This document shows positions 5,978-64,000 of a stretch of 64,000 bases of DNA, piece after piece (the first letter of the stretch is position 1; every line of letters begins with the position of its first letter). The notes under the pieces are model-generated. The model searched no databases, was not told the DNA's origin, and saw only the letters and a program-made list of their open reading frames with translations. A program made the position numbers and the translations under genes. The DNA comes from a virus. The stretch lies in IMG/VR virus record IMGVR_UViG_3300018405_000014, positions 52,700-116,699 of that record. One strand, 5' to 3'.

Positions 5978-5995
5978 TGGCTACCCCTTGTTCTG

Positions 5996-7126
5996 TCAGG
6001 CTTTGGCTGATATTTTAGACAATACCCCGTAAAGAGTAATGGCTGCCCCTACGATCGCAACGATCGTCTTAGCCCATTCGACATAATTACGCCGCATCGC
6101 GGCTTCCCTGTCTTGCTGAGCTTTGCTGTAAGCCCCTTCATTACGTAAGTTCTGAAGTGTCTTCTCTACCTCGAGCTGTTCGGTCCTGATCTTGGATTCC
6201 TCCAGTTTCCGAATCGTCATGTCGCGCTCGATCATCCCCTTCGCCATCTCGGTGATCGGGCCACCGTTGATAGCGTCTTCCACGGTCCGGTGTAGTCCGA
6301 ACTTCTTATCTGCCTCTTCGAAGGTGTACGAACGGTTGATCACTTCACTGACCACCCGCCCTTCATCCACCGGCTTACGGCAGACCACATGAATCCCAGT
6401 CGGGTAGGACAGGTCCCGCTCCACCGGAATCATGAATACATCGCCACCCACATTGATGTAGCGCGTCCCGCGCTGCACCTGATGGGCATTGTCCACAGCT
6501 TTAAGCATGAAACCAAAAGTCGCCTCACCCATGCCAGGCGCTATGTCCTGCAGGGTCCGTTCATCGCGCTTGATCTTGTCAAACGGATGGCGGGCTCCAC
6601 GGTCTGCGACCCACTCTACCAGAAGATCGACATCCGGCATATAGCAACGCCCGGAGGCGTCTGTCATGTCGCGCCAATAGATGACATACTCTACACTGGC
6701 ACTCACGAACTGCTGAGTGTTTGCATGCAGTGCACCGTCGTAGGCCCTGATCCAATACTGGGTCTCACGGTCATCCAGGTTAGGACGGGTCCGTAACGTA
6801 TCAAGAGCCCGTTCCATGGATGCCTTGCTCATGGTGTGCGTGACACAGACGATGAATTCATCGCCACTGCCATTACCGATCGGCGGAACCACAATAGCGG
6901 TACCGTCTCGACTGGTCACAACAACGTCACGCTCCATGTAGTTGTAATAGTTGGTGGTGACATACGGAGCACCCCTCACTCCTCGCTCATGGTCCGCACT
7001 GGCTCTTCTTATCCGCGTAGCGTTTCGCTGCTGATAAGGAAGATCTTCACGTTCGAGGTGAGCGGGATTCTGAGTGCTATGTGGGTACCTATTAAAGCGA
7101 TTATCGATGCGAGTGACGTCGTCCAT
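5996..7126 (-). CDS. C-terminally membrane-anchored protein with coiled coil, unknown
   Basis: 376 residues: a charged N-terminal tail (about 1-60), a soluble domain with DGTAIVVPPIGNGSGDEFIVCVTH and YRDMTD/VDLLVEW strands, and a long helical coiled-coil region (about 285-345, MIERDMTIRKLEESKIRTEQLEVEKTL...). It closes with one membrane span (IVAIVGAAITLYGVL) and a short basic end, as in a tail-anchored protein. It lies between the capsid gene and the RNAP beta fragment. The candidate promoter element at 7237-7260 is just upstream. Family unrecognised. Confidence 0.7.
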   Translation of the reverse strand: MDDVTRIDNRFNRYPHSTQNPAHLEREDLPYQQRNATRIRRASADHERGVRGAPYVTTNYYNYMERDVVVTSRDGTAIVVPPIGNGSGDEFIVCVTHTMSKASMERALDTLRTRPNLDDRETQYWIRAYDGALHANTQQFVSASVEYVIYWRDMTDASGRCYMPDVDLLVEWVADRGARHPFDKIKRDERTLQDIAPGMGEATFGFMLKAVDNAHQVQRGTRYINVGGDVFMIPVERDLSYPTGIHVVCRKPVDEGRVVSEVINRSYTFEEADKKFGLHRTVEDAINGGPITEMAKGMIERDMTIRKLEESKIRTEQLEVEKTLQNLRNEGAYSKAQQDREAAMRRNYVEWAKTIVAIVGAAITLYGVLSKISAKA

Positions 7127-28600: not shown

Positions 28601-29506
28601 ATCCTCGGGGTCAGTGCTCCGGATGATCTGGAGACTTCGTTGGAGTCTTTGGTGGAGAACCCTAGTGCGACCTTGCCCGATGCTGAAGGTTTCATGGCAC
28701 GTTTGCAACAAGAGCTGCCAATCGACGTGGTCGAGGATGATGTGAGTATGGAGGGTCTATTTAGCAATGCCCCATCCGCAAACATCCATAAGACGGAAGC
28801 CGTTCTGGCAAAATTGAAGGAGACGTATCTTAATTCGTCTTGGAGGTCAAAGCAGAAGTTCAAGGAAGGCAAGCTTCGGCTTGAAAACAGTCACCTGACC
28901 GAGATCGCCAGAGTCAATCAGACCAAGCAGGTCATGGACAAATGGGTGGATGCAGTCAGAACCCGTAGTTCGAGCCTGGCCAGAACAGTCAGTGACTTCT
29001 CCAAGGGCTGGAAAGACCCCAGTAAGGTAGAGCGTTGGGCAGACGGAATCGAGACTGACACTCTGCACGGGGCTCGCAGTAAGCAGACAGTCACTGTCAT
29101 CCGGCTGGCCGACAAAATACCGACGATGAATGGTTACATCATCGGTGGTGTCGGCACTACGACTTATCTGAGCACCGATAAAGAGGTTCTTGACGCTGCT
29201 AAGCGGCTCGAAGCTCTGCTGGATCACGATGTCGTTTGGATTGACGAACTGCTCGATAAGGAGTTTTCTCACAAGAGATTTGGAGAGTTCCATCGTGGGG
29301 CCGACCACACTACCTTGCTCGATGAAATCTCCAGCAGCGATCTCTCACATGCCGAGGATGCCATAATGGTATACAGGGCGATCAAAAACACCATGAAGAA
29401 GGAAGAAGCTGACTTCGTTAACTCACCTGAGGCCAAGTTGTTTAAGGACCATCACAGTGCGATGTACAAAGCGCTGTGGGCACAGCTAACGAAATCCACC
29501 AAATAA
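25664..29506 (+). CDS. SNF2-type SF2 helicase, interrupted by an intein, with C-terminal S-x-E region
   Basis: The 1280-residue precursor yields a 936-residue protein after intein removal. The helicase motifs are split P-loop AAAGSGK^T, VLVVPKNS (Ia), VYVGIDESHNF (II), HASGTPF (III), TVIFTSYVEVVKEL (IV) and TQTIARVDRIGQKHRCHVYET (V-VI), the SNF2/RapA style. Beyond about residue 985 are SLESL and SMEGL sites, then a domain (YLNSSWRSKQKFKEG) shared with the next gene. The S-x-E sites suggest a protein cleaved and perhaps packaged in the head. The ~100-residue N-terminus is unassigned. AAAAGGAAT precedes the ATG. Confidence 0.8.
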   Translation: MYANFSRLLGLISVKETGSHIIVNGIPGLRFSKDVYNHWKTSKLNNNMFTAISRSGVKFPKFYAIEVLYMLDQLIQSRRTYVGRRTLQRVRDELIAGTWLRNIGLGDFTSRLNMSALKDLTVTLFPHQINFLQHYDRATFEYSLNGMLMDAAAGSGKAQPLDAKIKVPGGWATMGDMRVGSQVIAPDGTTVNVSGVYPQGVKDIYEIEFVDGRKTRACGEHLWECHDGRQSNVSRQWDVRSTLRMKEILESRGGNRLYVPLITPDEGTEVQYPLDPYVLGALLGDGGLRYHVAFCTPDAEVLENVRNALPDTVEFKRITEIDYSIVGVERGDNVLRRIVRELGLFGKYSHEKHIPSEYLQGSRTQRLSLLQGLMDTDGTSDQQGTVSFCSSSKQLAEGVQYLVRSLGGIARIAVRKPTYTYNGETRNGRPAYQVNIRHSKPSELFRLKRKQERCKDDGQYAATLKLRVKSIKLVGQEEAQCIRVDHPKHLYITDDFIVTHNTISQYATAHCLGADTSVLVVPKNSVFDVWVKTIKVLFKQTPEYWHSLSGEELTLGKKYYIVHYDYLEKFVAFVGANKGSFGKVYVGIDESHNFNEQSNRTNLLIQLCQTLKARDVIHASGTPFKAMGSEAITLLATICNDFTPEVQGSFRKIFGKEAKRAIEILANRIGIVSFKVVKADIETPGVDYHEIKVPMNNSSEYTLTSVREKMSKFIDERLAFYRKGMPEYEKLYATCMDLHGQTVKGGMASAAFSEYRRGVAQLRKGYDPVTMKDLVMYCNRYELKTIVPSLPERYRKPFLNVRAIIKYVDLKVMGEALSQVLGRLRIQCHLDMLPNMPLDEIIDNATTKTVIFTSYVEVVKELESLLTKAGYKPMLVYGETNKDLPNIVKRFENDDDINPLVATFKSLSTAVPLTMANTVVFTNAPFRDYERTQTIARVDRIGQKHRCHVYETYLDTGAEPNISTRSKDIMAWSKSQVEAILGVSAPDDLETSLESLVENPSATLPDAEGFMARLQQELPIDVVEDDVSMEGLFSNAPSANIHKTEAVLAKLKETYLNSSWRSKQKFKEGKLRLENSHLTEIARVNQTKQVMDKWVDAVRTRSSSLARTVSDFSKGWKDPSKVERWADGIETDTLHGARSKQTVTVIRLADKIPTMNGYIIGGVGTTTYLSTDKEVLDAAKRLEALLDHDVVWIDELLDKEFSHKRFGEFHRGADHTTLLDEISSSDLSHAEDAIMVYRAIKNTMKKEEADFVNSPEAKLFKDHHSAMYKALWAQLTKSTK
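26135..27166 (+). other. Intein with LAGLIDADG homing endonuclease
   Basis: 344 residues (158-501 of the precursor), inserted between Lys and Thr of the P-loop. The splicing blocks are an Ala-1 start AQPLDAKI, block B-like ACGEHLWEC, and a C-terminal DHPKHLYITDDFIVTHN followed by Thr+1. The two endonuclease motifs are VLGALLGDGGL and LLQGLMDTDGT. An Ala instead of Cys/Ser at position 1 implies the splicing route used by Ala-1 inteins. The endonuclease looks intact, so the element may still be able to home. Confidence 0.9.
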
Positions 29507-29544: not shown

Positions 29545-30621
29545 ATGAGTAGTATTCTTTCTCGAGCACTTCACCCGACGACTCATCCAGCCGTAGCCAG
29601 TATGGAGTGCTTCAAATTGCTGACATCCATGGAGCAGGCAGCTGACGAAGAGCGTCAGGCAGCCGCCACAGTAAAGCTCTTGGAATCCATTTCTGAATTG
29701 AGCGACACCGACAAAGCAGATGAGTTGCTCGGTCACGTGTCTGAATTACAAGGGGTTGAACGTGAGCACGTCTCGCTGGAATCGCTAAGTGGTCTGCTGC
29801 CAGTTCTTCGAAAGCTGATCACCCCTGAAAAGGAACCCAGCAAAAGCCCGAAGGACTTCAAAGAACTCCAGGCGCTGTTCAACAAGTACTACCTCAATAG
29901 TGCCTGGCTCAGCAAGCAGACGCTGGTTGATGGTGAGGTTGATGGTGCCAGTATCGGTGAGACTTTGTCAAGACGTGGCAAGTTCAATGCCGGTACGTTC
30001 GCCGCCGACCTTTCCAAGTATGCCGGGGAACTCAAGTCGACCTATTCGAAGTATGTGCGTTCTATTGCACCTTACGCCGAAAAGATCCGGACACTGGATG
30101 GTCAGCTTGTCAGTCAGGTCAATGCGCTCAATGCCAAAGATAATGGCTACGACGCTCAGCTTATCAAGCTGGTCAAAGACGCTGTAGCAAAGATGGAGGC
30201 ACTCGAAGCCCCCGTTGTGCAAATGGACGGTAAGTTCGAGGCGTTCGGCGGCTGGACCACCATCGCCAAAAACGGTACCCTGACCGCTACGCTGACTCAC
30301 AAAGGCCCGACGCTCAAGACAGTTGCTACACTGACAAAAGAAGACATCGTGTCGGTGTGCAAAACCATTCTTGAGTTGTACGCGACGATTGCCGAACTGG
30401 GCAGTCTTGCCCCTGAGTTCTGCGACCTCAGCGACCGAGATCACGGGTTTGTTTCCTCGCTTAAAGGCGAATCCAAGAAGCTCTGGGAACAGTACGTACT
30501 GCAAACTTCCACGTTCGAGCAAATGCGTCGTCTGCTCTGGATGACAGGGGTTGCTACGGGTGTGAGTGAAGTGGCCCGTGTCTCGATCAAATGGATTGAC
30601 CGCTCCATTAGAACTGAATAA
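29545..30621 (+). CDS. Virion/inner-body-like protein sharing a domain with the upstream helicase
   Basis: 358 residues. The N-terminus has S-x-E sites (ASMECF, TSMEQA, VSLESLSGL), implying cleavage by the prohead protease near residue 75. The next segment FNKYYLNSAWLSKQTLVDGEVDG parallels LKETYLNSSWRSKQKFKEGKLRL in the helicase C-terminus, followed by similar helical sequence. The two adjacent genes thus carry paralogous C-terminal domains. Ribosome site AAGGAACTGTT. A small hairpin (GGGAGTCTAGGCTCCC, 29516-29531) lies between the genes. An ejected or inner-body protein is the likely class. Confidence 0.6.
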   Translation: MSSILSRALHPTTHPAVASMECFKLLTSMEQAADEERQAAATVKLLESISELSDTDKADELLGHVSELQGVEREHVSLESLSGLLPVLRKLITPEKEPSKSPKDFKELQALFNKYYLNSAWLSKQTLVDGEVDGASIGETLSRRGKFNAGTFAADLSKYAGELKSTYSKYVRSIAPYAEKIRTLDGQLVSQVNALNAKDNGYDAQLIKLVKDAVAKMEALEAPVVQMDGKFEAFGGWTTIAKNGTLTATLTHKGPTLKTVATLTKEDIVSVCKTILELYATIAELGSLAPEFCDLSDRDHGFVSSLKGESKKLWEQYVLQTSTFEQMRRLLWMTGVATGVSEVARVSIKWIDRSIRTE

Positions 30622-30665
30622 AGAAAAAAGAAACAGCTAAGAGAGGGAGCCTAGGCTCCCTCTCT
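30622..30665. terminator. Bidirectional terminator with A-rich arm
   Basis: AGAGAGGGAGCC/GGCTCCCTCTCT perfect palindrome at 30640-30665, preceded by AAAGAAAAAAGAAACAGCTA. The same ~30-nt A-rich block and stem start recur at 35163-35190. On the minus strand it supplies the T-rich tail for the gene ending at 30679. Confidence 0.85.
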
Positions 30666-30678
30666 ATGTCGTCACCGG

Positions 30679-32156: not shown

Positions 32157-32181
32157 TGTATTCACCGCTATCATGTATGTT
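32157..32181 (-). promoter_or_regulatory. Candidate phage promoter (TACATKRTAG-type element)
   Basis: Minus strand CATACATGATAGCGGTGAAT, almost identical to the element at 35949-35973. It lies 28 nt upstream of a start codon and just downstream of the spanin-operon terminator. Confidence 0.55.
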
Positions 32182-33082: not shown

Positions 33083-33137
33083 AATGAAATCTCACCGATA
33101 GATAAAGACATACAATGGCACCGTCGACCCGGCATAA

Positions 33138-33157
33138 GGGGAGAGCCGAAGCTCCCC
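33138..33157 (-). terminator. Terminator after the KAP-rich protein gene
   Basis: GGGGAGC-TTCGG-CTCCCC hairpin on the minus strand followed by TTATGCCGGG. It lies just beyond the stop at 33165. Confidence 0.8.
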
Positions 33158-33164
33158 CGTTTGG

Positions 33165-33572
33165 TCAGGCGGACAGCGTGGCGATGTACTGGGTCACGAT
33201 TGCCGAGACCAGTGCCGAGACCGAGATCTTCAGGCGCTTGGCTTCAGCGACCAGTGCAGCCTTGACGTTCACATCGACGTTGCCAGGCAGACGCACGTTA
33301 CGCGGCGACTTACCGCCGTCGGCGAAAGCTTTCAGGCGTCCGGTCAGGTCCAGAGCCATGACGGTGGCTTTGACCTTCGGTGCAGGCTTCTTGGCCGGAG
33401 CTTTGGCAGCAGGCTTTGCAACCGGCTTGCGAGCAGCTTTCGGCGCGGCGGGCTTGGTAGCCACCGGCTTCTTGGCGGGGGCTTTCGGGGCTGCTTTGGT
33501 AGCGGCGGGCTTCTTGGCTGGGGCCTTGGTAGCCGGTTTAGCGGCAGTGCCTTTCTCGATAGCGGTGGTCAT
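33165..33572 (-). CDS. Histone-H1-like Lys/Ala/Pro-rich protein with C-terminal ribbon-helix-helix domain
   Basis: 135 residues from the ATG at 33572, which has AAGGA 10 nt upstream. The first ~75 residues are repeats of APAKKPAATKAAPK type, like AlgP/histone-H1 tails. The last ~55 residues (PRNVRLPGNVDVNVKAALVAEAKRLKISVSALVSAIVTQYIATL) resemble a ribbon-helix-helix DNA-binding fold. The protein probably coats or compacts DNA or regulates transcription. Which DNA, host or phage, cannot be told. Confidence 0.65.
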   Translation of the reverse strand: MTTAIEKGTAAKPATKAPAKKPAATKAAPKAPAKKPVATKPAAPKAARKPVAKPAAKAPAKKPAPKVKATVMALDLTGRLKAFADGGKSPRNVRLPGNVDVNVKAALVAEAKRLKISVSALVSAIVTQYIATLSA

Positions 33573-33616
33573 GTTGGACATTTCCTTCAGTGCATTAAAA
33601 TGGATTTGTAACACCA

Positions 33617-34210
33617 TCAGACGTTATTAGGTCTGTCATATGATGGCACTTGGCCAGTTGTTTTTAACTTGAATAGATTAACGATCCGATCACCGTCGGC
33701 GAATACAACGGTGGCTACATCCTCACTGGCCTTTCGGCCAAGGATGTCGAAGAGCATGTTCGACAGTTCAAACCGTTCAACCGGTGTATCGCGCAGCTGA
33801 TTAAGGGCGGTGTCACCCACCAGCAGAAAAATGCGCCGCGCAGGTCGGGCTTTAGGTAGATGGTAAACGTGCTTATCCCGACCGGGTTGATAGACGTAAC
33901 TACCTTGACAAGACATCCGCTCAAACCACTCGTCTATCCAGCGAGGCACTTGCTGACGATAAAACTCGTTATGTAGGTGCTTGCGCCTGTACATGTCAAG
34001 GAGCATGTCGTACGTGGCTTGCTTTAATTGACTGAATGCGTACGATGAACCGTAATGGCCCCGCAGGTCCATGTAGACAAAATACGTGGTCTCATTTAGG
34101 ACGGTGGCTTTTATCGTCCTTCTCAGCGTCTTGATCAGCCTTCGCTTTCGAATCGGATAAAGCAGCAGATGCCACATCTGCACTAGGAATGACATAGGTG
34201 TAGGCCCCAT
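33617..34210 (-). CDS. Unknown protein
   Basis: Up to 197 residues; an ATG at 34195 is equally possible and neither has a clear ribosome site. The N-terminus is basic and hydrophobic (MWHLLLYPIRKRRLIKTLRRTIKATV). Then follow YFVYMDLRGHYGSSYAFSQLKQATYDMLLDMYRRK and a C-terminal RRIFLLVGDTALNQLRDTP...FADGDRIVNLFKL. Its 5' end overlaps the upstream gene by up to 119 nt in another frame. Function unknown. Confidence 0.55.
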   Translation of the reverse strand: MGPTPMSFLVQMWHLLLYPIRKRRLIKTLRRTIKATVLNETTYFVYMDLRGHYGSSYAFSQLKQATYDMLLDMYRRKHLHNEFYRQQVPRWIDEWFERMSCQGSYVYQPGRDKHVYHLPKARPARRIFLLVGDTALNQLRDTPVERFELSNMLFDILGRKASEDVATVVFADGDRIVNLFKLKTTGQVPSYDRPNNV

Positions 34211-35157: not shown

Positions 35158-35162
35158 ACCAA

Positions 35163-35206
35163 AGAAAAAAGAAACAGCTAAGAGAGGGAGCGCAAGCTCC
35201 CTCTCT
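35163..35206. terminator. Bidirectional terminator with A-rich arm (second copy)
   Basis: AGAGAGGGAG/CTCCCTCTCT hairpin at 35181-35206 preceded by AAAGAAAAAAGAAACAGCTA, nearly identical to 30622-30650. It lies between convergent genes. Confidence 0.85.
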
Positions 35207-35214
35207 ATGCCGTC

Positions 35215-54087: not shown

Positions 54088-54636
54088 TTAGACTACGGGT
54101 TCAGCTACGTAGTCAAAGCCGCTCAGGTCGGTGGTGGCGTATACCTGGCTCATGCGCTCACGGCCGTCTACCGGCTCAACCAGAGTCACGATCAGGTCGC
54201 CCACGTAGGCGTGCGAGCCAGCTGCAGCGCGCAGGGTCAGCGGTGCAGTTTCACCGTCAACCATCTCGTCAACCCAAGTCGGCATGACAGTTTCGACGAA
54301 GTCTACGTCTTCGGCGATCAGACCCAGCTGAGCGACAACAGCTGCTTTGACGTCAGCCAGAGTCGATTCGGCAGTGGTCTGGAATTCGGAAACGGCAGCA
54401 CCAACGGTGGCCAGCTCCAGACGGGTGTAACGCAGGGTCTGAGAACCCTTGAACTCGGTGCTACCTTCAACAGCAGATACGACGATCTGGGTGTTGCGGG
54501 TGTTGATGCCTTCCGGATCAACGAACTCAGACGGGGCACTGATGGCAACTTGTGCCAGAGTCAACGCACGGGCGTTGTCAGCGTTCATCAGGTCCAGAAT
54601 ATTCTGGATGGAACTCTTGAGGGGATCGATGATCAT
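54088..54636 (-). CDS. Repeat-family protein, N-domain only, minus strand
   Basis: 182 residues from the ATG at 54636 (TGGAGACACAGA upstream). Family pattern: ILDLMNADNARALTLAQVAISAPSEF, FKGSQTLRYTRLELATV, DVKAAVVAQLGLIAEDVDFVE, SHAYVGDLIVTLVEPVDG, ending QVYATTDLSGFDYVAEPVV. That ending matches TVYAVTDLSGFDLPM of the 53188 protein across the convergent junction, so the two are close relatives in opposite orientation. Confidence 0.7.
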   Translation of the reverse strand: MIIDPLKSSIQNILDLMNADNARALTLAQVAISAPSEFVDPEGINTRNTQIVVSAVEGSTEFKGSQTLRYTRLELATVGAAVSEFQTTAESTLADVKAAVVAQLGLIAEDVDFVETVMPTWVDEMVDGETAPLTLRAAAGSHAYVGDLIVTLVEPVDGRERMSQVYATTDLSGFDYVAEPVV

Positions 54637-54730
54637 TCTGTGTCTCCAGACGCAGTGGGAAAGAGTGGAAATCACCCTTCCTCATAGTATAGGTTCACCG
54701 AAAAAACCATATATTATTCAAAAATAACAA

Positions 54731-54749
54731 GGGGGGCCGAGGCCCTCCC
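54731..54749 (-). terminator. Terminator after the 54751-54969 gene
   Basis: GGGAGGGCC/GGCCCCCC stem on the minus strand, then TTGTTATTTTTG. It is directly beyond the stop. Confidence 0.75.
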
Positions 54750-54750
54750 G

Positions 54751-54969
54751 TTATGTCTCTGGTAATACTTTCGAAAGGATCAGCGTCAACCCATTCAGGG
54801 TTTTGTTTGCCACTGCAACCCCTATTTCAACGTCACCATCGGGAGCAAAGTCCCACGGCACCCAGACCCCATCGATCTTGGAATAGCCGCTGACGACCTC
54901 TCTATACTGCCCGTCTAGCTTCACGAAGACCTGTGTACTACCAGGCCATACACCATCTTTGATTAGCAT
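54751..54969 (-). CDS. Small fibre-region protein
   Basis: 72 residues (MLIKDGVWPGSTQVFVKLDGQYREVVSGYSKIDGVWVPWDFAPDGDVEIGVAVANKTLNG...). It is beta-rich with repeated DG[VQ]W/Y turns, as in small phage tail appendage proteins with WxxxxxxYxKxxGxW patterns. GAGGGGAGTTGGC precedes the ATG. It starts 15 nt after the upstream gene. Probably a tail component. Confidence 0.55.
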   Translation of the reverse strand: MLIKDGVWPGSTQVFVKLDGQYREVVSGYSKIDGVWVPWDFAPDGDVEIGVAVANKTLNGLTLILSKVLPET

Positions 54970-54984
54970 GCCAACTCCCCTCTA

Positions 54985-55230
54985 TCAAGGCTTGACAACC
55001 AACCAGATGTCACCGTCGGTGCCCTGAAGGTTATCTGGCAGGGAAGTGCTAACATGAAGGTCACGCATGGCCATGGATTTGACAGTCGACAGTTTGGTCT
55101 TGTCTTCGGTGGTGTAATCTTCAGTGGACAGTTGCTTACCGTTGACCTTATCGACCTTACCTGTCAACAGGCTGTTGACCTTGGAGGTAAAGTTGGACAA
55201 GGACTGAATGACGTTGCTGATAGTGCTCAC
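54985..55230 (-). CDS. Small tail-fibre-type protein
   Basis: 81 residues from a GTG at 55230 with AAGGAATTTAAAC upstream. The segment KVDKVNGKQLSTEDYTTEDKTKLSTV is the classic phage fibre motif VDKVxGKxLSTxDYTxxEKxKL. The end is GTDGDIWLVVKP. N-terminal heptads (ISNVIQSLSNFTSKVNSLL) resemble the starts of the larger fibre proteins in this region. Likely a minor fibre or adaptor. Confidence 0.65.
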   Translation of the reverse strand: MSTISNVIQSLSNFTSKVNSLLTGKVDKVNGKQLSTEDYTTEDKTKLSTVKSMAMRDLHVSTSLPDNLQGTDGDIWLVVKP

Positions 55231-55331
55231 GTTTAAATTCCTTCTACAGATGGATAGATTGCGGGTGAGGCTGGGTCATACTTATACAGCAAGTATGCCA
55301 GAAAAGAAAAAAAGAAAGACTCATAAAATTA

Positions 55332-55363
55332 GCTAGGTATAGGGCGAATACCCTATACCTAGC
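55332..55363 (-). terminator. Terminator after the micro-protein pair
   Basis: GCTAGGTATAGGG/CCCTATACCTAGC perfect stem, then on the minus strand TTTATGAGTCTTTCTTTTTTTC. Confidence 0.9.
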
Positions 55364-55384
55364 CGTATGTTTACATGCTGTCTT

Positions 55385-55495
55385 TCATGACTTCGCCGAG
55401 GTCTTTCTCAACGATTTCATCTGAGTCATGATAACGCGATGACCTGCGTAAGCGATGGCAGCACCGATGACTGTACCTATCATAAAGTTTTTCAT
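55385..55495 (-). CDS. 36-residue membrane micro-protein
   Basis: MKNFMIGTVIGAAIAYAGHR forms a short membrane segment followed by a basic tail (VIMTQMKSLRKTSAKS). GGAGAGCATCTAA precedes the ATG, and the start directly follows the stop of the preceding micro-gene. With that gene it forms a two-gene unit behind a promoter-like element. Unknown role. Confidence 0.6.
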   Translation of the reverse strand: MKNFMIGTVIGAAIAYAGHRVIMTQMKSLRKTSAKS

Positions 55496-55597
55496 TTAGA
55501 TGCTCTCCATTACTTCAGCGATTTTCTTGTTACGCGCAGGTGCAGTGATGGTCACAACTACGATGTAACCAACAACGATTCCAAGAAAGGTTTTCAT
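55496..55597 (-). CDS. 33-residue membrane micro-protein
   Basis: MKTFLGIVVGYIVVVTITAP is a membrane segment, followed by ARNKKIAEVMESI. A strong TAGGAGATACACCC site precedes the ATG. It resembles the next micro-protein in layout (MK-F-G start, short tail), suggesting duplication. Unknown role, but conserved translation signals argue it is real. Confidence 0.6.
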   Translation of the reverse strand: MKTFLGIVVGYIVVVTITAPARNKKIAEVMESI

Positions 55598-55653
55598 GGG
55601 TGTATCTCCTACGATTGGGGTATGTGTAGAGCAGTCCTTGATGGATTACTCTG

Positions 55654-55679
55654 TGTACTCACCACTACAATGTATTGTT
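55654..55679 (-). promoter_or_regulatory. Candidate phage promoter (TACATKRTAG-type element)
   Basis: Minus strand CAATACATTGTAGTGGTGAG, ~57 nt upstream of the first micro-protein start and downstream of the hairpin at 55719-55737 (AGAGAGG/CCTCTCT). Confidence 0.5.
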
Positions 55680-55718
55680 GAAATTATTTCGAATCGAATT
55701 TTAGAGTGACGACATAAA

Positions 55719-55737
55719 AGAGAGGATGACCCTCTCT
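55719..55737 (-). terminator. Short terminator hairpin
   Basis: AGAGAGG/CCCTCTCT stem, followed on the minus strand by TTTTATGTCGTC. It lies between the cassette's repeat and the micro-protein unit. Confidence 0.7.
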
Positions 55738-55768
55738 GGTAATTGTCAGATATAAGATTGGTTTGGTC

Positions 55769-55860
55769 AGGATTAATTTACAGCAGTCAGCATAAAGACC
55801 TACTCCCCATCCTTCATTGGATGGGGAGTAGGTCTAACGGACTTATGCCGGCAGAGCCAT
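55769..55860. repeat. 92-bp direct repeat, copy 1
   Basis: Identical to 61013-61104. It covers AGGATTAATTTACAGCAGTC, a terminator hairpin (55796-55835) and the last codons of a fibre gene (ATGGCTCTGCCGGCATAA on the minus strand). Confidence 0.9.
55796..55835 (-). terminator. Terminator within repeat copy 1
   Basis: AGACCTACTCCCCATCC/GGATGGGGAGTAGGTCT hairpin, followed on the minus strand by TTATGCTG. It is identical in copy 2. Confidence 0.9.
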
Positions 55861-56180
55861 TGCTGGGAACGCGTGCAGCACTGAATACACCTGTACCAAT
55901 GTTACTCGCATCGAGTGCGGGGGAGATCGCCGATTAGGAGTGGTTCTCCCCCGATGACTTGCCCCTTCACGCTGATAGTTACTTTAGGATAGGTTCCTGC
56001 CGTGGCGATGGATGGTAAAGTCGCATCAATACTGACATTAGAATTGCCTGAGATACTTACAGAACCTATTATGTCCTTCTTGAGTGTCAATGTAAAGGGG
56101 TTAGTGAGTCGATCGGCACTTACCGACGCTGTTGTCTTATCTAACTTAGTATCAAGCTTCTCAGAGATACTGATAAACAA
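55843..56180 (-). pseudogene. Frameshifted tail-fibre end
   Basis: The intact part from a TTG at 56180 (no better start) is typical fibre sequence: LTNPFTLTLKKDIIGSVSIS and ATLPSIATAGTYPKVTISVK, ending LLIGDLP, then RTRCE-stop at 55902. Removing one C from the CCCCC run near 55922 restores ALDASNIGTGVFSAARV, the usual fibre continuation. Removing one more C near 55870 gives PAMALPA-stop inside the 92-bp repeat. The gene therefore appears to carry two +1 indels, by decay, phase variation or base error. Confidence 0.6.
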
Positions 56181-56196
56181 CTCTGTAAACTATTGA

Positions 56197-56898
56197 CTAG
56201 ATCCAACTTGGATCTATTTTAGTGGCAGTGGTATGATTCCCAGCAGTGGTCGGCATTGCACTACCTTGTGCTGTCTGACTCATGCGATATATTCCGATTC
56301 GAGTCACTCGCTCAATTGTATTCGACGTTATCTGGGAGGAATCTGTAACTATTTTACCGAGATACATCATACCATCCGATTCAGGTAACTTCTCAAGACT
56401 TGTCCGATATCCCAATATTCCTTTATCAATACTCAGGTATATGTAGAATACTTTATTAGCAGGAGATACATCGATCGTGCTGAGCACTATGTCCTGAGCC
56501 GGAATTAATCCTAATGTACCTTGTAAATATGCCTGAATGACTTTAGTGAATCTTAATGTGAATCCGGTGGATGTTACACCCAATGGATCTGTACCCGTGT
56601 CTCCAAACTGACTCACTGGTAACTCTGACAGCGATACTGTTTCAGACAATGCATTATCGACATAAGCCTTAGAAACACCTCCGATAGAATTTAAGGTAAC
56701 TCCATGTGGATTGTTCTTATTGGCTATGTGTGAATTGACTGTTGTCAATACAGATGTCTTAATGGATTCCTTAGATGTGCCATCCAATGTGGCTGTATTT
56801 ACCGACTCAACTGCATGGGATGGCCTTGTCTTGACAAGATCATTTATGGCACTTGTGAACTCGCGCACTTTGGCGAGTAGTGTCAATAGCTGGCTCAT
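56197..56898 (-). CDS. Tail-fibre protein, paralogue 1 of 3
   Basis: 233 residues. N-module: LLAKVREFTSAINDLV, NTATLDGTSKESIKTSVLTTVNSH, NKNNPHGVTLNSIGGVSKAYVDNAL, LSELPVSQFGD. C-module: VFYIYLSIDKGILGYRTS, MMYLGKIVTDSSQI, VTRIGIYRMSQTAQGSAMPTTAG, ending KIDPSWI. AAGGACAATGAACC precedes the ATG. The whole gene is visibly richer in A+T than genes outside the cassette. Likely host-range fibre component. Confidence 0.7.
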   Translation of the reverse strand: MSQLLTLLAKVREFTSAINDLVKTRPSHAVESVNTATLDGTSKESIKTSVLTTVNSHIANKNNPHGVTLNSIGGVSKAYVDNALSETVSLSELPVSQFGDTGTDPLGVTSTGFTLRFTKVIQAYLQGTLGLIPAQDIVLSTIDVSPANKVFYIYLSIDKGILGYRTSLEKLPESDGMMYLGKIVTDSSQITSNTIERVTRIGIYRMSQTAQGSAMPTTAGNHTTATKIDPSWI

Positions 56899-56923
56899 GG
56901 TTCATTGTCCTTCGTTTACTTAA

Positions 56924-57637
56924 TTAGGTCCAATTCGGATCAAGATGAACCACTCTGGAAGGAAGGCCGCTAGTAGTAGGTATCGATTGTCCCTTTGGAA
57001 CAGATGATAATCGAAATCCTCCAAACTTAGTGAACTTGGTTATATTTATAGAATTGACTTTAGCGCTACCTGTTACTATTGTCCCAACGAACATGAGAAC
57101 TGAAGTCTCTGCGACTTGAGTCGTATGGACCACGTAAGAAGCAGTGCCATTGACAATAGTGACATAGACAAAGAATGTAGAATCTGATGGATTCGTCTTT
57201 ACCGTAGTCAGGTTTAAGATCATGGGGGCCAATGGGGCATATCTACCATTTATCAACAATGGGGTTACTTCTGCAAAATTGACCATCCATCCTGAAGACA
57301 CGGCCGTTATTAAGGGGAGGTTCGTGTCCAGTGATCCAAAGCGACTCACTGGAATGATTGATTCAGAGACCCTGCGCTTAAGCATCACCTCCACTTCACC
57401 CTTAGTATAGCTCCCTAACTGTAACGCTGTCAGTCCATGGGGATTGTTCTTGTTATTCTCATGTGCTGTTACAGTAGGATCTATCTCGGCCTTGATCTGT
57501 GCTATCGTACTTCCACCTAAGGTCTGTGCATTCTGACTTGAGATGACGTGAGCAGCAGTCTCCTTAAGTCGGACTGCTACTTGATCGAAATATATCCTTA
57601 TCCGATCAGTCAGCGCTGTTACTTTTGAGGTACTCAT
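56924..57637 (-). CDS. Tail-fibre protein, paralogue 2 of 3
   Basis: 237 residues with the same layout as its neighbours. N-module: LTDRIRIYFDQVAVRLKE, QTLGGSTIAQIKAEIDPTVTAHENNKNNPHGLTALQLGSYTKGEVEVML, IIPVSRFGS. C-module: FFVYVTIVNGTASYVVHT, LMFVGTIVTGSAKV, FTKFGGFRLSSVPKGQSIPTTSG, ending HLDPNWT. AAGAGGATTTAA precedes the ATG. AT-rich. Confidence 0.7.
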   Translation of the reverse strand: MSTSKVTALTDRIRIYFDQVAVRLKETAAHVISSQNAQTLGGSTIAQIKAEIDPTVTAHENNKNNPHGLTALQLGSYTKGEVEVMLKRRVSESIIPVSRFGSLDTNLPLITAVSSGWMVNFAEVTPLLINGRYAPLAPMILNLTTVKTNPSDSTFFVYVTIVNGTASYVVHTTQVAETSVLMFVGTIVTGSAKVNSINITKFTKFGGFRLSSVPKGQSIPTTSGLPSRVVHLDPNWT

Positions 57638-57655
57638 TTAAATCCTCTTGGGACT

Positions 57656-60556
57656 CTAGGTCCAATTAAGTTTGACGTTATCTGCAGGGTGTCCTGACGA
57701 TGTAGGTATTCCAGATCCGATTGGAGTTGTAGACATCCGCACCGTGTCAATCCGATAAACCTTTTCAACGTCAATGCGCTCGATCTGAGTTGCGTTTGTG
57801 GTCACTGTACCAATCAACATTGTCGAGAATGTCTCTATCTTTTCTGTCAACGTAATAACGTACTGCGGCGCACCATCGATCATTTCTACGTAAACGTAAA
57901 ACTTTTTATTGGTAGGTGTTGGGTGGATGTCTTTTAAATCAATGGTACGGATACCTAAGACATATGGCGATCCCATTATGAATACTGGTGTCGGGTCAGT
58001 AAAGTAAACCGACCACCCCTCAGACACATCCTGAGACGCAAGAACAATTGCTTCTGATTCAGGGGGTCTAACATACGCATCGAATTCTGCTTCGGTCTTA
58101 GCAAACGGGTAGATTATCGACTTAGTGTAAAGGTCACTTGACCATGAGTTTGAAAGGCACTGACAGAAGCCAAACGTCGGATGTACAAAGTAACCAATGT
58201 CCGTTAGTGGGATCGGGTTAAAATTAGAAAACCTAAAACTACTGGCTACAAATTCTTGAGTGGCCTTATTCCATTTAAATCGAACATTTACAAATGTACT
58301 ATTTCCAATTGTAGAGTAGTTATGACACGCTGGCCCACCAATCAATACTGCCGTTGGGGTATCATAGAAACACCACGCACCCGTAGTGAGACAATGGAGT
58401 GCTGCCGCAGGTCCAAAGCCAGTAGAATTTCCACCATATGCAACAGGTGTATATGTTTTCCCTATACCAATGCTGGTAACCACATTACCTGACTTAACAA
58501 GTCCAGTCACTTTAGATAATACACAGTAGTTGGTCCGAGTGGTAGCATTGTGAATATAGGTCCAGAAGAATGGAGGGACTCCACTTGTCTGAGGTACAAC
58601 CAATTGGCCGTATGCTGTCGTCCAAGTTCCGACCGTACCTGCAACAGATACAGCGACATTCCGGGCCGTAGTATTTAAAAGTGTACCGGAGACAGTCATT
58701 GGTGTTCCAGATACAGTCATATCTGAATTTAACTTCTGTCCTCGAGTCTCACTCACCCCGCTCACCGAAGTGAAATGGTAGCCAGACACATTCACCGAGC
58801 CGTTTACAACTTCGACTATCGGATTACTCCATGTATATAAATCGAGTCCCTTAGTGGATATATCTATCCGCTGTCTTGCGGGAGAGTACCCAGTCCGAGT
58901 TGGGTTACCATTGGCGCTCCGATATGTCCAATCGCGTGGACCTCCCTCTAACTTGACATTGACAACCGCCCTTGCCAATAAACCGTCAGATTCACGTCTA
59001 CCGATAGCATGGAGTAATATGTTTTCACTATCAATGCAGATAGCGCCGCCAATACTCGACCCTAGTGGAGTGGGAAAGAGTGGATCATCACTTGCGGTTA
59101 ATATACCTGTATTGTTACTTTGTTTTGAGAATTTTAATGTTTCAAACCGTGAGACAAAATTGGCAACGTTTGTTCTACGTATCGCGGCAGCATCTACCGT
59201 AGAACCGGAGAAAAAGTTAAACCAGACGCCATTCCGCGTCAAGATCTTATTGTCAAAGTAACCATTACCATTTGAATTAAATAGAACGTTATCGATGTCG
59301 CCTAAGAAGAAATCTCCGGAACGAGTAAAGCTTCTACCATCTTCAGATGCAATCAACTTGGCCTGATCGTTCAGACCGGGATCTACCACCGCTGTGCGTC
59401 TTACTGGATCGTAGACAACCGACATTGTGTTTGTAGCACCAGTTGAAGAAAATGAAGTTGCAAAATAACTTCTTGAACTGACTGCGATTCTAACAAGTCC
59501 CGCCTCATTTGCAGCCGCTGCAATGCCCACATTATCGCCGTGCTGTACGTTAACTGCGACTAAGGGACCTGCAACTAAAACCAATGGTTTAGTTGCAGCA
59601 TCCGTACTACTTGCAGCTGAGGCCAATGCAATCTTATTACTGGTAATGGGTCCCGAGTAACTTTGCGTGGTGATCGACGGCACTAATGTCAACTGTGTCA
59701 GAGTCCCGTTTCGGATATCCGACACTAGACATGTTCTAACGTATACCGCAAACTCACTACCTAATCCACTACCCCCTGCAAAGGTAAAGAAGTATACCGT
59801 ACCGTCTATAATGAGGTTGGCTGTTCGAGGGGAAGACCATCCCGATCCAAAACCCTCATTACCTTCGATGATACAACCTTCATGTAACTTCTCATCCATT
59901 GTACCGTTAGTCAGGGTTACAGACCAGCCATAGAACGTACCGTCTACTTCATTCTCCAGACGTGCTACAAATAACTCTTCAGAACTACAAACGATTGCAG
60001 AAAGTCGAACAGTTGAAGGTAAGAACGATGGACGATATTGCTTACCAGTACGTACTGGAGAAGTTAAACTGCCAATTTCAGCTTCGGGAATGTAACAGTA
60101 GAAAACACCACGTCTAGATCCATTAGTTCCGTTGCGCAACGCTACCAAGGTACCGTCTTCCTCCAACACCATCGCATACCCTTTATAGGTAGGGTCTGTA
60201 CTTGCACCTTCAAAACTACCTGTGACGCCTAAAGGAAGATAGTTCTGAAGACCATAGTTTGAGATAGGTAGTATACCTGGCGGTATCATAGTCTTCAGTT
60301 TATTATCAAATTCGGTCTTGGTATATATATCGAGTTGCTCTGTAGTGACATCGTGTGGATCTGTGATCTGTGAAGTATGCGCGGTAACCTTTGAAGTCAG
60401 GACTGCATTAACTTGAGTCTTCGTCTTCCCCTCTAATTTCTCTGCATTGTCTGACTGCAAGGCATTTAATCTTGGCTGTGACGCAAGGTACTTAATCCTA
60501 TTTGAAAGTATAACTAACTTACTACCGAGTTCTGTAAATTTGTCTGAAAGTGACAT
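57656..60556 (-). CDS. Large tail-fibre protein, paralogue 3 of 3 with a ~690-residue insertion
   Basis: 966 residues from the ATG at 60556 (GGGGAAATGACA upstream; 60562 and 60586 are alternatives). It opens with the shared N-module (KLEGKTKTQVNAVLTSKVTAHTSQITDPHDVTTEQLDIYTKTEFDNKL, ILPISNYG). It ends with the shared C-module (KFYVYVEMIDGAPQYVITLTEK, TMLIGTVTTNATQI, VYRIDTVRMSTTPIGSGIPTSSGHP). Between lie ~690 residues of beta-rich sequence with recurring short strands (GVFYCYIPE, LFVARLENEVDGTFYGWSVTL, GTVYFFTFAGGSG), suggesting a propeller or beta-solenoid tip. It is the largest candidate receptor-binding protein here. Confidence 0.7.
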   Translation of the reverse strand: MSLSDKFTELGSKLVILSNRIKYLASQPRLNALQSDNAEKLEGKTKTQVNAVLTSKVTAHTSQITDPHDVTTEQLDIYTKTEFDNKLKTMIPPGILPISNYGLQNYLPLGVTGSFEGASTDPTYKGYAMVLEEDGTLVALRNGTNGSRRGVFYCYIPEAEIGSLTSPVRTGKQYRPSFLPSTVRLSAIVCSSEELFVARLENEVDGTFYGWSVTLTNGTMDEKLHEGCIIEGNEGFGSGWSSPRTANLIIDGTVYFFTFAGGSGLGSEFAVYVRTCLVSDIRNGTLTQLTLVPSITTQSYSGPITSNKIALASAASSTDAATKPLVLVAGPLVAVNVQHGDNVGIAAAANEAGLVRIAVSSRSYFATSFSSTGATNTMSVVYDPVRRTAVVDPGLNDQAKLIASEDGRSFTRSGDFFLGDIDNVLFNSNGNGYFDNKILTRNGVWFNFFSGSTVDAAAIRRTNVANFVSRFETLKFSKQSNNTGILTASDDPLFPTPLGSSIGGAICIDSENILLHAIGRRESDGLLARAVVNVKLEGGPRDWTYRSANGNPTRTGYSPARQRIDISTKGLDLYTWSNPIVEVVNGSVNVSGYHFTSVSGVSETRGQKLNSDMTVSGTPMTVSGTLLNTTARNVAVSVAGTVGTWTTAYGQLVVPQTSGVPPFFWTYIHNATTRTNYCVLSKVTGLVKSGNVVTSIGIGKTYTPVAYGGNSTGFGPAAALHCLTTGAWCFYDTPTAVLIGGPACHNYSTIGNSTFVNVRFKWNKATQEFVASSFRFSNFNPIPLTDIGYFVHPTFGFCQCLSNSWSSDLYTKSIIYPFAKTEAEFDAYVRPPESEAIVLASQDVSEGWSVYFTDPTPVFIMGSPYVLGIRTIDLKDIHPTPTNKKFYVYVEMIDGAPQYVITLTEKIETFSTMLIGTVTTNATQIERIDVEKVYRIDTVRMSTTPIGSGIPTSSGHPADNVKLNWT

Positions 60557-60900
60557 TGTCATTTCCCCAACAGTGAATAAGTTCATCTAGGAATATCTCT
60601 TTACGCTCACTGAGTTCCTCTTCGCAAGCAATGCCCTTACTTTCAAAGAGTGCCCATTCGTGATAGAGATCGAGGGTTTCATCTACTACAAAGAAGATAA
60701 AGTCAAATATTGCTACGTATGTATTCTTTTTCCATCATGTCTCTCCATTGAGGATATTGTCGATATGGGATCGAATACCGGTGAGCAAGGCAGTCATACT
60801 TTCTTTAAGCTGAGTCACAATGACCATAGTTGTGCATCTCTTGAAGGGTTGGGAAGAATCGGTACATATGCATATCCGTTATCTTTGAACGGATATGCGA
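60530..60900 (-). pseudogene. Possible decayed gene (several frames)
   Basis: Minus-strand fragments that look protein-like lie in successive frames. MHMYRFFPTLQEMHNYG is followed by TQLKESMTALLTGIRSHIDN, then MEKEYIRSNI and DFIFFVVDETLDLYHEWALF...EEELSERKEIFLDELIHCW, separated by single-base shifts. A plus-strand 81-codon frame (60660-60905, GTG start) is the alternative but has an unconvincing sequence. The hairpins at 60870-60898 (GCATATCCGTT/AACGGATATGC) and 60905-60930 (GAGGAGTG/CACTCCTC) are in the same area. Confidence 0.3.
60870..60898. repeat. Hairpin GCATATCCGTT/AACGGATATGC
   Basis: An 11-bp perfect inverted repeat with a 7-nt loop, followed after 6 nt by a second stem at 60905-60930. 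60931-61012 shows no gene. It could be a terminator pair or a regulatory structure near the cassette edge. Confidence 0.55.
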
Positions 60901-61012
60901 CATAGAGGAGTGGGGGATGACACACTCCTCCGCTCAGGATCATCTTGGCCGTGAACGGCTAAAGATAATATCCTCCAGCTTCGCTCTTTATAGTCTTTTT
61001 GAATTTATTCAG

Positions 61013-61104
61013 AGGATTAATTTACAGCAGTCAGCATAAAGACCTACTCCCCATCCTTCATTGGATGGGGAGTAGGTCTAACGGACTTATGCCGGCAGAG
61101 CCAT
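61013..61104. repeat. 92-bp direct repeat, copy 2
   Basis: Identical to 55769-55860, 5244 bp away. It contains the terminator at 61040-61079 and the last 18 nt of the 61087-61593 gene, which here is in frame. Confidence 0.9.
61040..61079 (-). terminator. Terminator within repeat copy 2
   Basis: Same AGACCTACTCCCCATCC/GGATGGGGAGTAGGTCT stem as copy 1, directly after the stop at 61087, with TTATGCTG following on the minus strand. Confidence 0.9.
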
Positions 61105-61593
61105 GGCCTTACCAAGCAGGTAAGCATCCCAGGTCAGACCGCCATCACGAGTGGAGAATGCAATGACGTCACGACCAGCTGCTGAGAACTCAGGTGCTTT
61201 ACCTTCGTTCCAGTAGACGTTCGGCCAGAAGGTGATGGCGTGTGCACCAGCGTTGGTCAGGTACAGTGCCATGGTGTAGACGCGATCGGCTTCAGGCACT
61301 CGCAGGAGGGAGAAGGTAGTCGGTGCAGTGATGGTTTTGTTGAAATGGTTACCCAGCCAGCAATCCAGAGCAGAGTCAGCACCCAGGTCAACCAGACGCT
61401 CGGTGACAGCAACACGCTGCTCGCCAGTTTCAGGAGAACTCATGGCACTGGTGTCTGCGGCAAGCTGAGTACTCAGCTCATCGATCAGGCGCTCGGTTTC
61501 AGCGATGCCGTGAGCATCACCGTCTTCGATGGCGGTTTTTACTTTACCGGTGTAGTTGTTAAGCGACGCTAACAACACTGTTGGATCAGACAT
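61087..61593 (-). CDS. Tail-fibre tip-like protein
   Basis: 168 residues. The N-part is a helical stalk (LLASLNNYTGKVKTAIEDGDAHGIAETERLIDELSTQLAAD). The C-part (GADSALDCWLGNHFNKTITAPTTFSLLRVP, VYTMALYLTNAGAHAITFWPNVYWNEGKAPEFSAAGRDVIAFSTRDGGLTWDAYLLGKAMALPA) is the beta domain found at the end of many phage fibre proteins. Base composition is like the main genome, not the AT-rich cassette. Its 3' end is the source or partner of the 92-bp repeat. Confidence 0.7.
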   Translation of the reverse strand: MSDPTVLLASLNNYTGKVKTAIEDGDAHGIAETERLIDELSTQLAADTSAMSSPETGEQRVAVTERLVDLGADSALDCWLGNHFNKTITAPTTFSLLRVPEADRVYTMALYLTNAGAHAITFWPNVYWNEGKAPEFSAAGRDVIAFSTRDGGLTWDAYLLGKAMALPA

Positions 61594-61642
61594 ATAGACC
61601 TCGATGTGTTAGAAATGAAGAACCCTGTCTTCATACGATAAC

Positions 61643-62083
61643 TCAGGACTTAGGCAGGAAGGATGATTTACCCCCAACCCGAACCCCGATGTAGAAGATG
61701 CTGGCACGCCAGCGTGCGATACCCTCATCGCGCAATGCACGGTAGAAGACCTCATCAGCCTCATCGCGAGTGAGGTAACGGGCAGTACCGTCAGGACGGA
61801 TGATGGGGTTGCCACTGTAAAGCCAATCGTGCAGCGTCGCGGACTGATCCCCATAATCAGCCAGCAATGCATACACAGGGAAGAGAACGACGTTGCGCAG
61901 GCTTTTAAGGCTTGCGTAGTCGGTCCTGAACCCCTTCTTAACCACAATGGGGCCATAGACCTCATCGTAATACGTGAAGTCATCCAGCATCTCATAGAGA
62001 CGCCGCCCCAGTTGACGAGTGTCAAAGTGGGAGAACTTCCCGATCCCTAGGGTATCGGTGTATTGTGGAAATGTTAGCTGCAC
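61643..62083 (-). CDS. DUF1353 family protein
   Basis: 146 residues from a GTG at 62083 with AAGGAGTCACC upstream. The family pattern is visible: IVVKKGFRTDYASLKSLRNVVLFPV, YGDQSATLHDWLYSGNP, LTRDEADEVFYRALRDEGIARWRASIFYIGVRVGG. DUF1353 proteins are common near phage tail genes and of unknown function; the conserved Asp-His-Asp suggests metal binding. It lies between the fibre-tip gene and the large tail protein. Confidence 0.75.
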   Translation of the reverse strand: MQLTFPQYTDTLGIGKFSHFDTRQLGRRLYEMLDDFTYYDEVYGPIVVKKGFRTDYASLKSLRNVVLFPVYALLADYGDQSATLHDWLYSGNPIIRPDGTARYLTRDEADEVFYRALRDEGIARWRASIFYIGVRVGGKSSFLPKS

Positions 62084-62092
62084 GGTGACTCC

Positions 62093-64000
62093 TTACGTGA
62101 TGCTATATTCCTGAGTCTTCCAGACGCCGGGTTCTGGACGCATTGCAACCGCCCCTGTTGCTAGGTTAACCAGTGCGCACGTCCAATACGACGGTGTGTT
62201 CGCAGGTGTATTGGTGTTAGAGACCTTGACTGCATAGTATCGACTCTCAGGGATGGTGATGTCCACCGTGCCTTGAGTGGAGATAGTCGCTTTCTGCACC
62301 CCATCCATGAATAGATCGAAGATGTCATCGGCCTGTGCAAATACCCGATAGGTCCCTGCCTCGAAGTACAGGTTAGCGTAGTAATCCAACTTGAAGTTAC
62401 CGGGTACAGATTCCGACCCATACACCGGCGAAAAGAGCAAATGACCAAAATCAATCACTGTCCCTGTAACGGGGTTTAACGGCTGCCAGAACGAATATGG
62501 CCCAGTGGCAGACCATGGACGAGCAGACGCCGTATACGGCCTCGTAGCGGCGTTGGGGAGGACCTGTGCTGCTAGTCCCTTGTCGGCGAAGTAATCGCCG
62601 ATCAATTTCATGTTGATTGGGATGTTGGCTGAATGTTTAAGGCCCAACCAAGGCACTCCTGACGCAATTTCGTCGATCATCCGACCGACCCGCCTGATGT
62701 CCGTCAAGTCAGGCAGATACGCGCGCAGCGTTTTCATGATGTCCGCGTAATACACCTTGTCCGATATCACTGGGGCAAACCGCTTGATCTTGATGGTACT
62801 GGTCATGGTGAAGGGCGTACTGAGTACCACTTTGAACTCATCGTTGTTCTTCACCATCACAGGACCAAGTCCCGCGCCATCCCAGGTCTGAGTCACAGGC
62901 TGACCGGGTACATAAGCCACTGTCCCGACCCGGACCCCATTTTTGTAAACGATACCTGACCCGTTGACATCCATCGTCCCAACAAAGTCGACGTTAATCA
63001 GACTCTGGTTCCTAATGCCCACATCGAGCACCTGACCGTTGTCCCTGACGTTCTGCCCGTCGGTGAAGGAGATCTTGAAGGACACCACGTTATAGGTGAT
63101 CCGGTAGGTCTCAATCTCACCCGAGTTCAGAATGGCGGCCACTTGGATCGTCGTGGTCCCTTTCGGCACGGTAAAGGGCTGGACTTGCGCAGGAGTCACC
63201 GAGGTGAACGATGCCACTTGGACACGAGATTCTGATCCTCCCGCACTGATGCTTTCGGCGTCTGTCATGCCGTTATAAAGCGGGTGGTCTCCATAGGTTG
63301 CCCGCAAGAATCCGACGTTCACAGGCGTCCGGTTGTAGTCACCAGAGAAGTAGGCCCCGAACCTTACGATCAGCTTGTTCGCTGTGGCGAAGAACGATGA
63401 GAGTGTGACGGGGTGCGCTTGAGCGATGTTGTTGATCAGTTGTCCGTGATCGGTGATCACAATCAAGCCGTTACCGTTTTCACGGTAGGTCATCATGGCC
63501 TGCACAGCTGCATCAGTGATCAGAGCTGTCACGGTAGAGACAGATGACATCAGCAGAACACACGCATACTGCTCAAGTTCAGTCAAGGTGGGGTTGAGCG
63601 ATCCACCGTAATCGCTGACGTCCTTGAATGTCGGAGTGAAACCCACTGCTGCACACAAGCGCGTGAAACTTGTGTTAAAGCCCGAGGCAACTGTACTTTT
63701 GACCGCGTAGCTGCCGGTGGCAATAGCATCGCCGAGGATCAGGATCTTTCGATTGCCGGCAGTGACCTTCTTCGGGTTAGCAGTCCAGAGGATTGCGTTG
63801 TACAGGTACTTATACGACGCTGTAAGCTGTGAACGAGGGTCGTAGAGCGTCTTTGACAGGTTGGTGTAACCCGATGCCCCAGTCTCAGCTGACGTGCTCT
63901 CAGGGAGGTCTATGGTGTCTTTAAACAGGACGGCCTTAATGTTACCATTGGCATCCAGAATATAGACGTCACGGAAGCGGGTGTAGTAATCACCTGCCAC
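62093..64000 (-). CDS. Large tail protein with PA14-like C-terminal domain (5' end outside window)
   Basis: At least 635 residues; the frame is open to the right edge, so the true start is probably beyond the window (the edge GTG is coincidental). A middle region (about 80-230, KILILGDAIATGSYAVKSTV, YACVLLMSSVSTVTALITDAAVQAMMTYRENGNGLIVITDHG) looks like a Rossmann-type or vWA-like fold. Beta domains follow, then a PA14-like domain near the end (LDYYANLYFEAGTYRVFAQADDIFDLFMDGVQKATI, YYAVKVSNTN). It is likely a tail tip, baseplate or adhesin component. Confidence 0.65.
   Translation of the reverse strand: MAGDYYTRFRDVYILDANGNIKAVLFKDTIDLPESTSAETGASGYTNLSKTLYDPRSQLTASYKYLYNAILWTANPKKVTAGNRKILILGDAIATGSYAVKSTVASGFNTSFTRLCAAVGFTPTFKDVSDYGGSLNPTLTELEQYACVLLMSSVSTVTALITDAAVQAMMTYRENGNGLIVITDHGQLINNIAQAHPVTLSSFFATANKLIVRFGAYFSGDYNRTPVNVGFLRATYGDHPLYNGMTDAESISAGGSESRVQVASFTSVTPAQVQPFTVPKGTTTIQVAAILNSGEIETYRITYNVVSFKISFTDGQNVRDNGQVLDVGIRNQSLINVDFVGTMDVNGSGIVYKNGVRVGTVAYVPGQPVTQTWDGAGLGPVMVKNNDEFKVVLSTPFTMTSTIKIKRFAPVISDKVYYADIMKTLRAYLPDLTDIRRVGRMIDEIASGVPWLGLKHSANIPINMKLIGDYFADKGLAAQVLPNAATRPYTASARPWSATGPYSFWQPLNPVTGTVIDFGHLLFSPVYGSESVPGNFKLDYYANLYFEAGTYRVFAQADDIFDLFMDGVQKATISTQGTVDITIPESRYYAVKVSNTNTPANTPSYWTCALVNLATGAVAMRPEPGVWKTQEYSIT

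Follow-up and report, generated by a model that had tools for sequence, protein, structure and literature searches.

The window analysed here is a stretch of 64,000 nucleotides from a 116,699-bp contig, a metagenomic fragment of a phiKZ-like jumbo phage. Protein matches place it in the phiKZ-like group, with Pseudomonas phage DT01 (MW735835) as a distant relative by protein comparison and IMG/VR genomes such as L007-L012 and L092-L106 in the same group (about 41-77% protein identity). DT01 was placed nearest Noxifer, in the same cluster as phiKZ, by its authors (PMC8541153). Megablast of the region against phage records gave no match. All genes of the locus lie on the minus strand, in the order virion structural gene, DUF1353 gene, fibA, right repeat copy (R), cassette, left repeat copy (L) and a downstream edge, in which repeat L is followed by a stem-loop with a promoter-like element, two tiny peptides, pep81 and pep72. 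The main features are as follows:

62093..64000, minus strand: virion structural gene (phrog_11065), truncated by the contig end
61643..62083, minus strand: DUF1353 protein (PHROG tail assembly chaperone), the upstream flank
61087..61593, minus strand: fibA, the resident fibre gene of 168 aa, whose 3' end is the repeat
61013..61104, minus strand: repeat copy R (judged the original), with the last five codons and stop of fibA (ATGGCTCTGCCGGCATAA) and a terminator stem-loop at 61040-61079
57656..60586, minus strand: long cassette protein of 976 aa, phrog_3573 family, with a beta-rich middle resembling propeller proteins
56924..57637, minus strand: short cassette paralogue of 237 aa, whose model resembles phage receptor-binding proteins
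56197..56898, minus strand: short cassette paralogue of 233 aa, matching family phrog_26864
55769..55860, minus strand: repeat copy L (judged the duplicate), the same 92 bp in an out-of-frame fusion to a broken f304-type fibre gene
55644..55737, minus strand: conserved downstream edge, with a native terminator (55719-55737) and a promoter-like element (55644-55699)

The terminator and promoter-like element of the downstream edge are also present in DT01, L007, L009, L095, L097 and L102. The element (CGATTCGAA ... TACATTGTAG ... GTGAGTA) with its preceding terminator is found in the window at 55644-55737 and at 32177, on the minus strand in each case, and the combination recurs in the lineage (DT01, L007, L009, L095, L102), usually with the element directly after the stem-loop. 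Elsewhere in the window, a plus-strand ORF (25664-29506) encodes a 1280-aa SNF2-type helicase with a putative intein, recognised by eye from the sequence.

The sequence-only reading had described an exact 92-bp direct repeat around the cassette, and sequence comparison agreed: 55769-55860 and 61013-61104 are identical at 92 of 92 positions, in direct orientation, with no extra matching base on either side and an ungapped identity of 16-34% beyond the ends. This is the sole exact repeat of at least 40 bp within the 64-kb window, and the 116,699-bp contig holds two full copies and no third. Further copies were searched for in the rest of the contig, in the relatives and in plasmids, and none was found; the repeat has no Rfam match and contains no promoter-like site, the lineage's own promoter-like element included. 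The stem-loop of copy R has a 17-bp stem and a fold of -45.7 kcal/mol (z -7.5), and that of copy L lies at 55796-55835.

The resident gene fibA enters copy R in frame and ends there in MALPA followed by the stop, while at copy L the same bases come after a broken gene, in a different frame. Because fibA is in frame at R, with an end that is conserved in L093 and DT01, and the gene at L is broken and in another frame, copy R is judged by its coding context to be the original and copy L the duplicate. The repeat had been said to span the end of a fibre gene and its terminator, which is correct for the right copy, at fibA, but not for the left one, which follows the broken gene. With 0 of 92 differences, the divergence between L and R is about 3% at most (at 95%), and therefore the copy is recent or has been held identical by gene conversion.

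The end of fibA can be followed in several relatives. In L093, fibA has the same last 22 residues and a stem-loop of its own after the gene; in the 200 bp that end at the stop, the DNA is 83% identical. The C-terminal end of the DT01 homologue is MKLPA, and a stem-loop stands at a similar distance after the stop of fibA in L010 and L012. L093 also contains a second, chimeric fibA with 52% protein identity to the other copy, which shows that duplication of fibA occurs in a relative. The two fibA-type genes of L093 lie at 5469-6620 and 10419-10931; in the first of them, an N-terminal half resembling fibA is fused to a C-terminal part that differs.

The DNA between the repeats had been described as richer in A+T, with a different codon choice, and both properties were confirmed. 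The GC content of 55861-61012 is 0.438, compared with 0.530 ± 0.015 (minimum 0.503) in windows of 5.15 kb elsewhere, and GC3 of the three cassette genes is 0.37, 0.42 and 0.39 versus 0.61 ± 0.04 in 57 background genes. Their codon-fit z values (-10.7, -10.1 and -18.2) are the worst three among 60 genes. GC and codon use are thus not uniform across the boundary. The f304-type relic beside repeat L has a GC3 of 0.46, low like the cassette, and low GC extends past the cassette to about 55.2 kb, in intergenic DNA. A donor search by DNA gave no relevant match in phages or plasmids, and no exact hairpin in genome contigs. Among phages that carry a related trio of genes, those with similar identity have a GC of 0.50-0.57 and others about 0.33-0.37, compared with 0.44 for the cassette.

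As proposed from the sequence, the three fibre genes are paralogous: the proteins are 29-33% identical and have N- and C-terminal domains in common, and the families matched by the cassette genes are phrog_3573 and phrog_26864. Homologues of the long protein, roughly 25-33% identical to it, were found in Rak2-like, Agrican- and other jumbo phages; as a single query against viral contigs the 976-aa protein found nothing, and detection of homologues there needed a profile search. The set of one long and two short proteins recurs in other jumbo phages. For example, the trio lies downstream of the virion gene in L130, the same domain pattern is found in L131, and the order is short-short-long in L041, L042 and L052. 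In L043 (8004-17424), the long-short-short trio occurs twice in tandem order in one genome. Fresh tandem triplication was considered as the source of the three fibres and is unsupported, since a C-domain tree separates them: the 237-aa protein falls among long proteins from other phages, and the 233-aa protein in a group made up mostly of short ones, in a tree of few columns and long branches. Because of this separation, the three window proteins look like old paralogues travelling together.

For the 237-aa protein, the model (pLDDT 78.5) has phage receptor-binding proteins as its top fold matches (lactococcal p2, the cyanophage A-1(L) fibre and Bordetella Mtd); most of the probabilities are close to 1, but the E-values are no better than 0.01-0.15. 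The model of the long protein (pLDDT 78.5, pTM 0.73) shows partial matches, at low TM-scores, to enzymes that contain a propeller, and it resembles a CBB structural protein along its whole length (TM 0.78). A sequence search against solved structures gave no match. In view of these model fold matches and their E-values, receptor binding by the cassette proteins is likely, and they probably add or change receptor recognition; it is from the protein family and the predicted fold that an effect on host range, as suggested by the sequence-only reading, may be inferred.

The cassette is missing from the relatives. No match to the long cassette protein was found in the searched records of seven relatives (L007-L012 and DT01), although the same query recovers the two short paralogues in the window's own contig, and all three cassette genes are missing from these records. 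The site is empty in four relatives (L008, L009, L095 and L104). In L008, L009 and L095/L106, the pep81, pep72 edge comes next after the DUF1353 gene, with neither fibA nor cassette, and L104 is in addition without the DUF1353 gene and has an unrelated 250-aa ORF ahead of the same edge genes. DT01 carries at this site a LamG fibre followed by the same promoter-like element, and a homologue of this LamG fibre was seen by eye 5' of DUF1353 in L092. In L010-L012, the DUF1353-fibA pair is followed by other genes. The flanks are mosaic: DUF1353 and fibA are closest to L010-L012 (77% and 59-60%), and virion, pep81, pep72 and vsp195 are closest to L008/L009. The closest relatives are only about 60-77% identical at the flanks. 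A region carried by all of them at the same divergence as the flanks is not what is found. Two features of a hotspot are present, namely a site content that differs among relatives beside conserved flanks, and a content of foreign composition by GC3 and codon use.

Inside the repeat pair, decayed pieces of native genes were found at both edges of the cassette:

60914..60979, minus strand: relic of the virion gene start, codons 9-30, with an internal stop (one TAG); 73% identity, E 8e-4
60570..60731, minus strand: remnant of codons 2-55, from the start of a 315-aa gene; 52% identity, E 1.5e-14
55865..56180, minus strand: relic of an f304-type fibre gene from residue 15 onward; 61% identity to L008/L009

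The first two lie near repeat R and the third adjoins repeat L. The virion-start relic has 82-89% DNA identity over 44 nt to L008, L009 and L103. The f304-type relic carries a frameshift at a C run, with its frameshifted continuation found and a DNA match, and ends about 5-10 bp from repeat L. In relatives, the 315-aa gene is located about 7 kb away from the virion gene, on its 5' side. The order fibre-fibre-f304-virion is found in L040 and so exists in other phages. A candidate relic of the f304 start (60738-60878) was dropped as too weak.

In summary, a fibre module of three genes with foreign composition lies between fibA and the conserved downstream edge. On balance, we think that the locus is a receptor-binding hotspot with a foreign cassette, in which a degenerate second virion-to-fibA block had its interior replaced by foreign fibre genes. 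A tandem duplication of the virion-DUF1353-fibA-terminator block would have supplied the second copy, and the foreign module would then have taken the place of its interior, a mixed infection being the probable setting. What would be left of the second copy is its start, the virion relic beside R, and its end, the fibA tail and terminator at L. A block duplication is preferred because the virion start beside R and the fibA end at L match the two ends of a second block. Consistent with this history are the composition, the absence of the cassette from relatives, the empty or otherwise filled sites, the trio elsewhere, the fold matches of the short protein, the fibA end and terminator of L093 together with its chimeric fibA, the native relics and the mosaic flanks. 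Against it, the virion relic is short, and the order of the relics (virion, 315-aa gene, and f304 after the trio) is unlike a simple second copy, so that at least one further event would be needed. Further points against it are that the donor search found no source for the trio, whose relatives have other GC values, and that the closest relatives are no nearer than about 60-77% at the flanks. The simplest history would make the repeat a by-product of duplication and not the entry site, and the 92-bp repeat is probably the scar of past gene swapping.

A possible but clearly less probable account is that the foreign block entered downstream of fibA in one event, without block duplication, and that strand exchange left a copy of the fibA end and terminator at the far junction, or that the block had captured a fibA end earlier and brought it along. 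A single event would explain both the repeat and the composition, and the identity of L and R is compatible with a copy that is recent or was kept identical. However, the virion-start relic beside R and the 315-aa relic are left unexplained, unless the donor had that order.

The exact direct repeat could also be read as an active switch, the strong form of the sequence-only proposal, with the repeat maintained so that mixed populations lose, regain or exchange the cassette often enough to be useful. If R and L recombined, by homologous recombination or by strand annealing, 5,244 bp would go and a single intact fibA-terminator locus would stay behind, so that loss of the cassette need not harm fibA; the fibre content of the site is variable among relatives. 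Nevertheless, we regard such a switch as unlikely: among the records searched there is no near-identical genome lacking the cassette, the closest relatives being those about 60-77% identical at the flanks; the repeat is missing from relatives; and the decay of the genes at either edge looks more like debris than like a device under maintenance. In the same way, it is doubtful that the duplicated fibre-gene end and terminator are kept as a recombination handle, with a mixture of cassette-plus and cassette-minus genomes and a removable module that circulates between phages. Of the original proposal that recombination at the repeat could insert, delete or swap the cassette, the foreign fibre cassette and the variable site are supported; R/L recombination itself is at most a possibility, the repeat being absent from the relatives searched.

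That two strains or phages were joined in assembly at a common 92-bp sequence is improbable; the contig is a metagenomic fragment and its composition shifts at the repeat, but 92 bp is shorter than an ordinary read, the cassette contains relics of this very lineage (virion, 315-aa gene, f304), and the downstream edge agrees with that of relatives. Least of all do we expect a site-specific or mobile element bounded by the repeat (an invertible segment, transposon, homing element or diversity-generating retroelement), for which the repeat at both ends and the variable receptor-binding genes might speak, since the large cassette ORFs are the three fibre genes and relics, the families scanned gave no recombinase, transposase or reverse transcriptase match, and the repeat is direct, consists of the fibA coding end and terminator, and is without Rfam matches or copies elsewhere in the contig, relatives or plasmids. 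Unlike in the Mu/P1-type invertible tail-fibre segment, the repeat is direct and there is no recombinase among the neighbours scanned, and unlike in a diversity-generating retroelement, 54088-64000 has no reverse transcriptase match and the repeat copies are identical.

The two terminators would putatively close transcription on both sides of the module. Terminators may also be preferred joints in this lineage, because vsp195 (DUF7941; 54088-54675, minus strand), which lies between stem-loop terminators, has the opposite orientation to its homologues in L008, L009, L095 and L104. Two other terminators of the window, at 30620-30673 and 35161-35214, agree at 93% of 54 nt. The interval that they bound, 30.6-35.2 kb, was considered as a second island of this kind and rejected, since the flanking genes are also about 5 kb apart in relatives and the codon-deviant plus-strand ORF at 33115-33630 overlaps a likelier minus-strand gene.

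Several known systems resemble the locus in part. Large lytic phages, e.g. Schizotequatroviruses, have recombination hotspots for receptor-binding and tail-fibre genes (PMC12028318), where fibre genes are likewise swapped between phages at fixed places with mosaic flanks; what differs here is that a long exact fibre-gene end with its terminator brackets the cassette, together with native relics. PeSLs, as far as they are described in the paper that cites them (PMC4503421), are cassettes of a promoter and a terminator stem-loop to which gene shuffling in T4-like phages is attributed. By that secondary account, what the two share is a terminator stem-loop that recurs on either side of an exchanged block, and this lineage has true terminator-promoter composites at the downstream edge; the 92-bp repeat, however, carries a coding-gene end, has no recognised promoter and exists in only two copies in the 116.7-kb contig, and so it lacks two PeSL features, an early promoter in the element and many copies in the genome. 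The triplicated structural proteins of Rak2-like phages (GAP32_143-145, CBB_147-149, XbC2_139-141) also belong to phrog_3573 and stand several in a row, and it is the CBB structural protein that the long-protein model matches; in those phages three proteins of about 900 aa lie among metabolic genes, whereas here one long and two short proteins lie in a phiKZ-type virion neighbourhood. The exchange of receptor-binding genes in large lytic phages is thus already known, and what sets this locus apart is the bracketing by a long exact fibre-gene end and terminator.

The joints at which receptor-binding genes recombine in large phages are rarely still legible. At this locus one can still read the foreign module, the resident fibre gene, the joint in its duplicated form and the debris of the native block, and the relatives provide the empty site. 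Two ideas thereby become testable: that exchange in this lineage uses terminators as its joints, and that a receptor-binding module can be lost as a whole with its neighbours unharmed.
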